Part shown: positions 32,744 to 36,467 of the stretch, piece after piece
Numbering within the stretch: the stretch's first letter is position 1
How the letters are laid out: every line of letters starts with the position of its first letter
Assembly (NCBI RefSeq): GCF_003344865.1
Contig: NZ_CP031165.1
Location: 2,423,910 to 2,487,909, forward strand
DNA from: Euzebya pacifica
GTDB taxonomy: Bacteria > Actinomycetota > Nitriliruptoria > Euzebyales > Euzebyaceae
DNA length: 64,000 bases
Direction of reading: 5' to 3'
Program-made: the position numbers and the translations under genes
Notes under the pieces: generated by a model
Told to the model about the DNA's origin: nothing
Databases searched by the model: none
The model's input: the letters and a program-made list of their open reading frames with translations, nothing else

Positions 32744-32816
<73 letters not shown>

Positions 32817-32857
32817 CGAGACCTGCTCCAGTTATTGGAACATGGTCCAACCCCTGC

Positions 32858-33047: not shown

Positions 33048-34307
33048 TCAGCTGGCGGCCAACACCCTCCGGCACCGAAGGAGGTGGCGTGCCATCGCGT
33101 CGGCCAGCTTCTCAGCGGCCACGCCGTTGACGGTCCCGGGCAGCGCGTCGACCACCTCGACCAGCGCACCCCCGACCCGGTCGACGAGGGCGTCGACCCG
33201 ATCGACGACCACCGTGGGGGAGAGGTCGAAGTCGGCGCCGACCGCCGCCAAGTGGTGACGGCGGACCTTGTGCATGCGGTAGTAGCCGATCTTGAGCGAC
33301 AGCTTCATCTCACGCCAGTGGTAGTAGGGGGCGGCCGAGGCCATGTCGTAGGCCGGCGCCAGCGCGACGTCACCACGGTCGAGCAGGACCGACACGTTCT
33401 TGGCATGCAGGTCGGTTGCAGCCAGCAGCCAGCTGCACACGGCCAGGTCGAACAGCCGTGGCAGGTCCTGGCCCGCTCCTGAACGGCGCAGGACCGCAGC
33501 AACGTCGGCCCATGACGGCCCACCGTCGTTCTGGTACTTCCGCTCCGGGTGGACACCCAGTGCTTGGCACAGATCCTCCTGATGGACCCTCCGTGCGGCC
33601 CCGTCGACGACGAACCGGTCGTAGCGGGTGGACACCAGCGTCGGGATCCCACCGAAGTCGACGATGCGGCTGTTCGCGGTCGGCAAGCCGACCTTCGCCA
33701 GCACCTGCAGGATCACGTGCTCGTTGAGGGCGAAGTCGGTCAGCCGACCCGACTGCGGCTTGAGGATGTGGGTCGTGGCCGCGGCCCCCAACGGGCGCGC
33801 CCAACCACGGTCGGCGTCGTGGGCCAGCGCCATCTTCGGTTGGGTGCCGGCGAGGGAGAAGTAGCCCGAATCGGCCAGCTTCGCCGGCGTGTTGGTGGTG
33901 TCGGCCGCGAGGATGTCCCCCAGGGCCGTTGCGACGTCGGTATCGGACATCCACTGCAGCTGGCCGACCGTGGACGGGGGTGTGTCGTCAGGGGTGAACT
34001 GGACGGCTCCCGCACAGTCCAACCCGATGCGGGTGGAGAGCAGTGCGAACGGGTGTGTGGCCACCTGCATGGTCCTTGCCCAGCGGGCGAGGGTCCGGTC
34101 GTTGTCGGGCAGCAGGCCGTGCAGCCACGGGCTGATCCGGTCGTGTGGGTGGGTCGGCCGGGTCAGCGGCATCGACAGCGACAGCGGCGTGGCGTCGTCG
34201 TCGAGCCGCCAGTCCGGGTCGTAGACCAGCTCGAGGGTGCCGGCGGTGCGGGTCAGGGTCGCGGCGTGCCGCCCCGACACCCACACGTGGAGGCTGCCGG
34301 TGTTCAC
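33048..34307 (-). CDS. hipA: HipA-family kinase toxin
   Basis: The 419-residue protein has a HipA N-terminal domain and a kinase-like fold. Visible motifs are SLAGTQPK (151-158), HILKP (180-184), NEH (195-197), HQEDLCQALG (242-251), the catalytic-loop-like ATDLHAKN (Asp299, Asn304) and the metal-binding AYD (Asp321). HipA toxins phosphorylate glutamyl-tRNA synthetase and induce dormancy; the exact target here is unknown. The GTG start overlaps the hipB stop (GTGA), the usual antitoxin-first operon order. All kinase residues are present, so it is probably active. Confidence 0.88.
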   Translation of the reverse strand: MNTGSLHVWVSGRHAATLTRTAGTLELVYDPDWRLDDDATPLSLSMPLTRPTHPHDRISPWLHGLLPDNDRTLARWARTMQVATHPFALLSTRIGLDCAGAVQFTPDDTPPSTVGQLQWMSDTDVATALGDILAADTTNTPAKLADSGYFSLAGTQPKMALAHDADRGWARPLGAAATTHILKPQSGRLTDFALNEHVILQVLAKVGLPTANSRIVDFGGIPTLVSTRYDRFVVDGAARRVHQEDLCQALGVHPERKYQNDGGPSWADVAAVLRRSGAGQDLPRLFDLAVCSWLLAATDLHAKNVSVLLDRGDVALAPAYDMASAAPYYHWREMKLSLKIGYYRMHKVRRHHLAAVGADFDLSPTVVVDRVDALVDRVGGALVEVVDALPGTVNGVAAEKLADAMARHLLRCRRVLAAS

Positions 34308-34744
34308 CGGGAGGTGCGGCCGGACCGCTGGCCGAGGAGCTCCCGCCAGTCGCCGTCCTCGTCGTCGACGCCACCGAGCTCATCATCCTCATCGAGCTCA
34401 TCATCATCGAGCTCGTCATCGACGTCACGACTGCCCCACAGGCTGCCCCCATCGGCTGCTGTGGTGGCAAGCCCGGAGCCGGTGCGGGCCAGGAGGGCGT
34501 CCAGCAGCCCCCGACCGGACAAGTGCTCGTCGTGGGAACGGGGCCGCGCGGACAGGTCGAGGTCGAGCGCACCGAGCAGCGCCAGGACCGTGGACAGGGT
34601 CGGATCCGACCTGCCGGCCTCGATGTGGGACACCCAGGCACGCGAACGGTCGGCGGCGCCGGCGAGGTCGGCCTGGGTCCACCCGAGCTCGGCTCGGCGA
34701 CCGGCGATCAGCAGGCCGAATGCCTTCGCGTCAGTGATACGCAT
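34304..34744 (-). CDS. hipB: HipB-family antitoxin
   Basis: The 146-residue protein has an Xre-type helix-turn-helix in its first 65 residues (GLLIAGRRAELGWTQADLAG, ADRSRAWVSHIEAGRSDPTL), then a linker and a highly acidic tail made of Asp/Glu/Leu repeats. It is expected to bind the operators upstream and to neutralise HipA. The ATG at 34744 is chosen because it begins the HTH domain; a longer in-frame start at 34864 would translate the operator repeats themselves into repeated CVVEHT-like peptides and is rejected. Confidence 0.85.
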   Translation of the reverse strand: MRITDAKAFGLLIAGRRAELGWTQADLAGAADRSRAWVSHIEAGRSDPTLSTVLALLGALDLDLSARPRSHDEHLSGRGLLDALLARTGSGLATTAADGGSLWGSRDVDDELDDDELDEDDELGGVDDEDGDWRELLGQRSGRTSR

Positions 34745-34756
34745 CGTTGACTCCGT

Positions 34757-34863
34757 TGTGTGGGCCACCACACATTCCGGGGGGGATGTGTGCTCCACTT
34801 TACACTGTGCCGAAAAGGTGTGCTCGACCACACATTGCCGTTTCAGGTGTGGCATGGCACACA
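34757..34863. promoter_or_regulatory. Four phased inverted-repeat operators upstream of hipBA
   Basis: Four 18-bp sites share the form (T/G)GTGTG-N(5-6)-(C/T)(A/T)CACA: TGTGTGGGCCACCACACA (34757-34774), TGTGTGCTCCACTTTACA (34787-34804), GGTGTGCTCGACCACACA (34817-34834) and GGTGTGGCATGGCACACA (34846-34863). Their starts are 30, 30 and 29 bases apart, about three helical turns, so all lie on one face of the DNA. They stand directly upstream of the hipB start and are the probable HipB/HipA autoregulatory sites. Confidence 0.8.
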
Positions 34864-34885
34864 TTTGCCCTGGGCTCGAGACCGG

Positions 34886-35944
34886 TCAGCGGTGGGGCGA
34901 CTCCAGCCGACGGTCGGTGTCGGCCAGCCAGCGGGCAAGTGGCGTGTCGCCGGCCGCACCGCGGCGGCCCCAGTCGTAGACCACCGCCGCGCCGGCCGCC
35001 CGGTCGTGGAGCGTCCGACGGTGGGGGCCGAGCAGCATCACGGCGAAGCCGCCGAGGAACACCAGCGACAGCGGAAGCACAGCGGTCCAGGCCACCACCC
35101 GTCCGAGCCCCAGCGGTTCACCGTCGCGGCGCAGCAGCCGGATGCCGACCAAGCCCATCCCCGCCGTGCGACCGCCAACCGTCAGCGTTGACACCCAGTA
35201 GGTGGCCATCCAGCCGAGCAGCCCGGCGAACCACAGCGCCCCGGGTGTCCCGCCCCCGCCGATGTCCAGCCCGAGCACGCCGTTGAGGACCCAGCCGACC
35301 GCCGCGGTGAAGGCGGTGTAGAGGCCGGTCGACAGGGTCAGGTCGGCGCCGACGGCGAGCAGTCTCGACAGGAGTCCGGCATAGCGACCAGCCATCTCCG
35401 CGGGGACGCCGACCTCGTCGAGGCGCAGGACGGGGTCGTCGGTGCCGCTGACCAGCGCGGCGGGGCCCGCCGGCATTCGGTCGTGTGACCGGCCGGTCAG
35501 CCGGTACAGCAGCCGCATCAGCACCAGGTCCACCGCCACGACCTGACGGCGCACGCCGTCAATCGCCGTGCCTGCCACTCGCCCGGTGGACTCCGCCACC
35601 ACGTCGGCGATCCCGGCCCGCTGGACGAGGGCCTGTACGTCGACCCGCTCGAGCAGGCGGTCGGCGTCCACCCGGTCCAGCAGGCGATCGGCGTCCACCC
35701 GGTCCAGCAGGCGGTTGACGTCCACCCGGTCCAGCAGCAGGTTGACGTCGACGTGGTCCAGCAGGCGGTCGACGTCCACCCGGTCCAGCAGGGCGTTGAC
35801 GTCGACCCGTGCGAGATGGCCGTCCAGGTCAACCTCTGCGACCGCAGCGTTCAGGTCCACGCCTCGCACGGCTGCGTCGGCCAGCAGCCCGGCCAGGTCA
35901 CCGATCCGACGGGATCCTCGGGGGTGGTGACGGGGATCGCTCAT
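34886..35944 (-). CDS. RDD-family membrane protein with N-terminal 9-residue repeats
   Basis: The 352-residue protein has a soluble N-terminal part with nine tandem nine-residue repeats (residues 29-109, consensus VDVNRLLDR), a linker, and an RDD domain with three to four membrane helices (about 195-320) including GGRTAGMGLVGIRLLRRDGEPL and the terminal LHDRAAGAAVVYD. RDD proteins are membrane transporters or accessory proteins of mostly unknown substrate. Similar V-D-x-x-x-L-L-x-R repeats precede RDD domains in other actinobacteria. The gene follows the hip operators tail to head and is not part of the operon. Confidence 0.8.
   Translation of the reverse strand: MSDPRHHPRGSRRIGDLAGLLADAAVRGVDLNAAVAEVDLDGHLARVDVNALLDRVDVDRLLDHVDVNLLLDRVDVNRLLDRVDADRLLDRVDADRLLERVDVQALVQRAGIADVVAESTGRVAGTAIDGVRRQVVAVDLVLMRLLYRLTGRSHDRMPAGPAALVSGTDDPVLRLDEVGVPAEMAGRYAGLLSRLLAVGADLTLSTGLYTAFTAAVGWVLNGVLGLDIGGGGTPGALWFAGLLGWMATYWVSTLTVGGRTAGMGLVGIRLLRRDGEPLGLGRVVAWTAVLPLSLVFLGGFAVMLLGPHRRTLHDRAAGAAVVYDWGRRGAAGDTPLARWLADTDRRLESPHR
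35618..35860 (-). repeat. 27-bp in-frame minisatellite in RDD gene
   Basis: Nine in-frame units of 27 bases encode the nine-residue repeats. The central five units are nearly identical at the DNA level (GACGTCCACCCGGTCCAGCA on the plus strand recurs), so unit number could vary by slippage or recombination. Confidence 0.8.
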
Positions 35945-36086: not shown

Positions 36087-36467
36087 ATGCCGACCGACGA
36101 GGAAGACCTGCCGGGGACAATCGAACGCTCGCCCGCCAAGGCGCAGCGGACCTACCGCAAGACGTTGGACAGCGCCCACGAGCAGTACGACAGCGAGGAG
36201 CAGGCGCATCGTGTCGCCTACGGGGCGCTCAAGCACTCGTTCGAGAAGGTGGGCGACCACTGGGAACCGAAGGACGAGAAGGGTCCGTCGGACGAGCGCG
36301 CCGCACGGGGTGGCCCTGACACCCGCGGTGAGACCGCAGGAGGGGTTGACGTACGCGGGCACACCCGGGACGAACTCTATGAACGTGCCAAGGCGCTCGG
36401 CATCGACGGACGGTCGTCGATGACCAAGATCGAGCTGGGACAGGCCATCGCCCGGGCACAGGACTGA
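36087..36467 (+). CDS. ChaB and Rho_N domain protein
   Basis: The 126-residue protein has a ChaB domain in its first 60 residues (IERSPAKAQRTYRKTLDSAH, EQAHRVAYGALKHSFEKVG) and a Rho N-terminal-like helical motif in the last 40 (GHTRDELYERAKALGIDGRS). This two-domain protein occurs in many actinobacteria and is of unknown function, possibly nucleic-acid binding. A GAGAGGAG site precedes the ATG. The gene stands alone between the RDD gene and the convergent DUF3253 gene. Confidence 0.82.
   Translation: MPTDEEDLPGTIERSPAKAQRTYRKTLDSAHEQYDSEEQAHRVAYGALKHSFEKVGDHWEPKDEKGPSDERAARGGPDTRGETAGGVDVRGHTRDELYERAKALGIDGRSSMTKIELGQAIARAQD

Follow-up and report, generated by a model that had tools for sequence, protein, structure and literature searches.

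What controls the hipBA toxin-antitoxin operon of Euzebya pacifica, and what sets the spacing of the repeats that stand in front of it? The locus lies in a stretch of 64,000 nucleotides (contig NZ_CP031165.1, positions 2,423,910 to 2,487,909; hereafter the window), in which the gap upstream of the antitoxin gene hipB (minus strand, ATG at 34744) is filled by four 18-bp inverted repeats with start-to-start spacings of 30, 30 and 29 bp. Judged by their position, their conservation and the pattern seen across the hipBA family, the four sites are very probably autoregulatory operators of HipB, and an array through which HipB or the HipA-HipB complex would control its own operon is, with high probability, the best overall explanation of the locus. 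An earlier note on this DNA had gone further and proposed that the sites lie on one face of the helix, three turns apart; this part of the proposal did not survive the calculation reported below.

The probable operator array

The sites and the other features of the locus are listed in Table 1. As the earlier note described, four palindromes of 18 bp at 30/30/29 spacing precede hipB; however, the exact TGTG-N10-CACA form that it gave for all four is found at site 1 only, since sites 3 and 4 start with GGTG and site 2 ends with TACA. Matching outer pairs number 6/6 at site 1 and 5/6 at each of sites 3 and 4, for a four-site total of 20/24. A GGAG Shine-Dalgarno-like stretch follows two bases beyond the end of site 1, with site 1 on its 5' side. 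About 140 bp separate hipB from the next upstream gene, which lies on the same strand and encodes an RDD-family membrane protein, and the longer hipB frame in the list of open reading frames (to 34864) merely reads through the sites.

Table 1. Features of the hipBA locus, in window coordinates, with site positions counted from the hipB start codon and site sequences given as + strand letters
Feature	Coordinates	Strand	Position to hipB	Sequence	Remarks
tRNA-Gly(GCC) gene	32744-32817				about 230 bp past the 3' end of hipA
hipA, toxin kinase	33048-34307	minus			419 aa; GTG start; 4-nt overlap with hipB
hipB, antitoxin	34304-34744	minus			146 aa; HTH_31/HTH_3
Acidic C-terminal tail of HipB	34307-34429	minus			residues 106-146; low-confidence part of the predicted structure
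Operator site 1	34757-34774		-30 to -13	TGTGTGGGCCACCACACA	hipB-proximal; outer 6+6 palindrome perfect
Operator site 2	34787-34804		-60 to -43	TGTGTGCTCCACTTTACA	one half degenerate
Putative -10 hexamer	34797-34802	minus		TAAAGT	within site 2; assigned by its TANNNT form and by comparison with the congener
Operator site 3	34817-34834		-90 to -73	GGTGTGCTCGACCACACA
Operator site 4	34846-34863		-119 to -102	GGTGTGGCATGGCACACA
RDD-family membrane protein gene	34886-35944	minus			next gene upstream of hipB
27-nt repeat within the RDD-family gene	35637-35809				6.4 copies
ChaB-domain protein gene	36087-36467

Shuffled sequence often yields such matches in two copies, so that chance had to be considered as the origin of the arrangement in this GC-rich gap between genes. 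The score of 20/24 for four palindromes chained at a nearly constant pitch was, however, reached by only 1 of 1500 dinucleotide shuffles, which together with the conservation in a congener described below refutes chance in practice and leaves it a negligible probability. The repeat-plus-symmetry pair score was likewise 26 against 18.6 +/- 1.2 in shuffled sequence (p = 0.005, the lowest value that 200 shuffles allow).

The motif is concentrated at this locus. KGTGTGN6CACACA has exactly 4 matches in the 6.37-Mb genome (two replicons, 5.80 and 0.57 Mb), 3 of them within the array, and TGTGN10CACA-like matches in the 64-kb window amount to 15 against 23.7 expected, with all four sites falling within 107 bp. 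No wider regulon for the motif was detected, as genome counts at up to two mismatches were 209/204 against 213/209 for a reversed-control pattern, and no second array was found elsewhere in the genome; the hipBA operon here is a single one. Several regulators use palindromes of the GTGT type, and the sites might on that ground serve another transcription factor, or a leader RNA structure, instead of HipB. We consider this improbable: the motif has no surplus elsewhere in the genome, arrays of changing sequence and like layout accompany hipB across phyla and, as regards RNA structure, only site 1 would be transcribed if the putative -10 box is correctly placed.

Conservation in a congener

The search for close relatives of the operon covered four genomes of the genus, 66 of the class and 396 of the phylum, as well as viral contigs and plasmids. 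A close hipA was found in one relative only, a member of the same genus (genome G001, locus L002) whose HipA is 56% identical over residues 1-300, and none nearer than this congener was seen among the class and phylum genomes, viral contigs or plasmids. In the HipA tree the window and the congener form a clade of their own (support 100/99), outside the large group with 26-28 bp arrays described in the next section.

Absence of the phased sites from close relatives was named in the earlier note as one of two observations that would refute it. The congener keeps three of them, GTGTAGTCAAGTGCAC, GTATAGTAAACTGCAC and GTGTACTTTCCTGCAC, at -88, -58 and -28 of hipB with a pitch of 30 and 30 bp, and their distances from the ATG differ from those in the window by no more than one base. 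A counterpart of site 4 was not seen in the congener, where the neighbouring gene ends near -95. When sites 1-3 of the two operons were aligned without gaps, with those of the congener placed at -89, -59 and -29, 36/54 positions were identical in the sites and 5/24 in the linkers (Fisher p = 0.0002, with the sites fixed beforehand and the alignment offset being the best of 26 tried).

This alignment bears on a further alternative, namely that a 30-bp unit was recently duplicated in tandem and that the even spacing reflects history and not function. The repeats are indeed direct as well as inverted, which speaks for such an origin; yet the sites are kept while the linkers show no relation, either from site to site or from one congener to the other, and the last step is 29 and not 30, which makes recent duplication very improbable.

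An open frame that ends about 95 bp before the congener hipB reads RDRLIHHYFDIDLDILW, which resembles the C-terminus of HepT-type toxins; two toxin-antitoxin modules may hence be adjacent in L002.

Arrays across the hipBA family

The family set comprised 80 loci with a related hipA and 15 from a genome search, and the sequence ahead of every recognisable hipB was taken to a length of at most 170 bp. Repeated 18-bp palindromes were scored in pairs for all lags between 18 and 60, with 200 dinucleotide shuffles as the background and p <= 0.01 accepted as a pass. Of the 87 hipBA upstream regions, among them those of E. coli and the window, 59 carried a significant array. With double spacings folded to half, the pitch was 27 bp in 39 arrays, 26 in 7, 28 in 7 and 25.5 in one, so that 54/59 fall in a 26-28 bp group; outside it were 30 bp in two (the window and the congener only) and 37, 38 and 21 bp in one each. 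By record titles the set covers Actinomycetota, Pseudomonadota, Gemmatimonadota, Acidobacteriota and Verrucomicrobiota, with many metagenome bins among them, and as the loci are mutually related the 59 arrays do not represent 59 independent events. Many arrays have three to five sites. Their half-sites vary (TGTC, TGAC, TGTA, TATC, TTGC and others), but the pitch does not.

Plasmid-borne operons outside the set gave similar values: 28 bp in Mycolicibacterium fortuitum (p = 0.013), 26 bp in Bradyrhizobium (p = 0.003) and 26 bp in Aminobacter (p = 0.02). No array usable for pitch was obtained from L106-L108, L110 or L113. Palindrome pairs 37-38 bp apart were observed at L006 (37 bp) and L014 (38 bp, p = 0.015), whose HipBs have a different recognition helix; this pitch is about one helical turn above 27, similar to 39 versus 28 in E. 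coli.

The check suggested in the earlier note, a search for sites spaced as in the window before related hipB genes, found them in the congener, with its 30-bp pitch, but not elsewhere, where 26-28 bp prevails. Multi-operator arrays upstream of hipBA are already known, and the array in the window is ordinary for the family apart from its uncommon pitch. Taken alone the window would add one more autoregulated hipBA operon, and the family comparison is the more useful result: operator sequence is free while, from phylum to phylum, the pitch stays at 26-28 bp. This points to a spacing imposed by protein, most simply by contacts of HipA with HipA that link adjacent HipB dimers. The 30-bp clade provides a natural exception on which a protein-imposed pitch can be tested. 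We found no published survey of hipBA operator pitch in the open-access literature, and priority is not claimed.

Helical phasing

Three turns of B-DNA correspond to 31.5 bp, and the one-face, three-turn arrangement fails on this figure since the 30/30/29 steps all fall short of it. At 10.5 bp per turn on straight DNA the sites of the window stand at 0, -51, -103 and 171 degrees, each step being about 2.8 turns, and sites 1 and 4 face in opposite directions. The corresponding angles are 0, -120, 137 and 17 degrees for E. coli and 0, -154, 51 and -103 degrees for a 27-bp array. One-face phasing is therefore rejected by arithmetic for all three, a verdict that holds for straight DNA and whose geometry would be altered by bending induced by HipB. 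As the E. coli operators and the 27-bp arrays are also out of phase, simple one-face phasing is not the rule for hipBA arrays and cannot be the general basis of their assembly.

A proposed model of autoregulation

In the proposed mechanism HipB, alone or as HipA-HipB, would repress its own operon through the four repeats, with one HipB dimer per 18-bp palindrome. The weak half of site 2 reads TAAAGT in the window and TATAGT at the same place in the congener, both of the form TANNNT, and we take this hexamer as a putative -10 box; no convincing -35 element was found for it. The 26-28 bp arrays have TANNNT most often at five and three bases ahead of the proximal site, the place that TATAAT takes ahead of O1 in E. 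coli. In the window the array begins just short of the ribosome-binding site and reaches back to -119, so its occupancy would block the putative promoter.

HipA-HipA contacts probably join neighbouring dimers, as has been proposed for E. coli, and would make repression cooperative; switch-like release of the toxin, the further step that the earlier note took, is conjecture. Whether such contacts between neighbouring sites are also what sets the pitch we regard as an even question, the case for it being the constancy of the pitch together with the E. coli precedent. Compared with the common 26-28 bp, the 30-bp pitch is two to three bp longer and rotated by about 70-100 degrees. More tentatively, HipA-HipB on DNA might in this genus form a differently wound filament in place of the E. 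coli arrangement, with a 30-bp pitch and the -10 box within an operator half.

The sites could instead bind HipB independently, the regular spacing merely avoiding collision of dimers and no higher-order assembly being formed. Legionella HipBST offers a parallel, having three even operators with 53-bp gaps for which the authors raise intermediate occupancy and not cooperativity (PMC10653801), and the pitch in the window is unlike that of E. coli. A pitch of 26-28 bp kept in the great majority of arrays despite very different operator sequences is, however, tighter than steric avoidance requires, and we therefore consider independent binding rather unlikely.

Several observations weigh against an operator array working as outlined, that is, autoregulation by HipB or HipA-HipB. 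Site 2 is clearly a weaker palindrome than sites 1, 3 and 4. No consensus sigma-70 promoter or terminator was found in a scan of 34700-34920. E. coli has another pitch, so a geometry deduced there may not transfer. The evidence from conservation rests on one close relative, in which the palindromes are individually weak: symmetry alone is not significant (equalled in 225/1500 shuffles), so that the repeat-plus-symmetry score (p = 0.01) and the alignment with the window are needed to recognise the sites. In addition, the congener hipA (L002:1137-2391) is split across two frames that meet near codon 299 on a draft contig, and it may be a pseudogene or an assembly error.

Identity of the operon and its surroundings

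Domains, solved relatives and the predicted HipB fold agree in identifying the operon as a genuine type II toxin-antitoxin module of the hipBA kind, as the earlier note had already done. HipA carries the Couple_hipA (E = 4e-19) and HipA_C (E = 2.8e-46) domains, both above the curated cut-offs, and matches the solved E. coli and Shewanella HipA in the PDB with E down to 2e-37. The motifs FSLAGTQPKM, HILKP, ATDLHAKN and YDM are kept in its alignment to E. coli HipA; we take them to be the Ser150 loop, Lys181, Asp309/Asn314 and Asp332, respectively. HipB matches the helix-turn-helix (HTH) family HTH_31 at 2.4e-12, and its match to NCBIfam couple_hipB (TIGR03070; E = 4.5e-14) scores 52.1 bits, under the cut-off of 71.65. 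Its predicted structure is confident over residues 1-70 (block pLDDT, the predicted local distance difference test, 89-98) and low beyond, and the best fold matches of the predicted HTH core are the Shewanella HipB chains 4pu7, 4pu4 and 4pu3, followed closely by HipB of E. coli and Legionella.

The repeated acidic tail that the earlier note ascribed to HipB is real: aspartate and glutamate make up 19/41 of the final residues, and an imperfect tandem repeat of 15 nt encodes part of this stretch. The tail was rejected as a component of the operator mechanism, being absent from the congener and the other aligned HipBs, which end near a DLDxLL-like stretch. In E. coli HipB the disordered C-terminus is a degradation signal for Lon (PMC3376134), and by analogy it is possible that the acidic tail acts as such a signal here.

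In the surroundings, the tRNA-Gly gene past hipA is of a common kind of integration site. The repeat in the RDD-family gene encodes LLDRVDVNR-like nonapeptides, and the C-terminal match of the ChaB-domain protein to the Rho_N domain is weak.

Comparison with known systems

The operon resembles hipBA of E. coli in having an HTH antitoxin gene that abuts or overlaps the HipA kinase gene, in an upstream region filled by four 18-bp inverted repeats, and in a first operator near the start codon (-39 in E. coli, -30 in the window). As measured from the K-12 genome, TATCCN8GGATA stands at -39, -67, -106 and -134, giving spacings of 28, 39 and 28 as against 30/30/29; the sites of the window do not follow this pattern, their half-sites being TGTGTG/CACACA and not TATCC/GGATA. 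The TATAAT of E. coli lies in the linker before O1, whereas the putative -10 box of the window is inside site 2, and E. coli HipB is without the acidic tail. In E. coli, HipB binds its four operators cooperatively, HipA acts as co-repressor and a bend of 70 degrees is given (review, PMC3920265), and dimerization of HipA within promoter complexes is cited in work on Caulobacter (PMC7029023).

Similar in layout are the 27-bp arrays of Actinomycetota, Pseudomonadota, Gemmatimonadota and others (L024, L036, L071, L047 and more), in which 18-bp palindromes, two to five in number, follow one another at constant pitch and stop about 20-60 bp short of hipB, and in which HipA is 36-46% identical. They differ in a pitch of 26-28 bp, against 30/30/29 in the window and 30/30 in the congener, in a TANNNT mostly located in the linker before the proximal site, and in a half-site usually of the TGTC type. 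Caulobacter hipBA1 and hipBA2 also have inverted repeats at matching intervals upstream (PMC7029023); in C. crescentus these two operons share sites, with possible cross-regulation, whereas the window has a single hipBA. Legionella hipBST is similar in its several evenly spaced 18-nt sites and differs in its 53-bp gaps, its split kinase and its three genes. Asymmetric operators are still bound by Legionella HipBST (PMC10653801), which provides a precedent for the weak site 2 of the present array.
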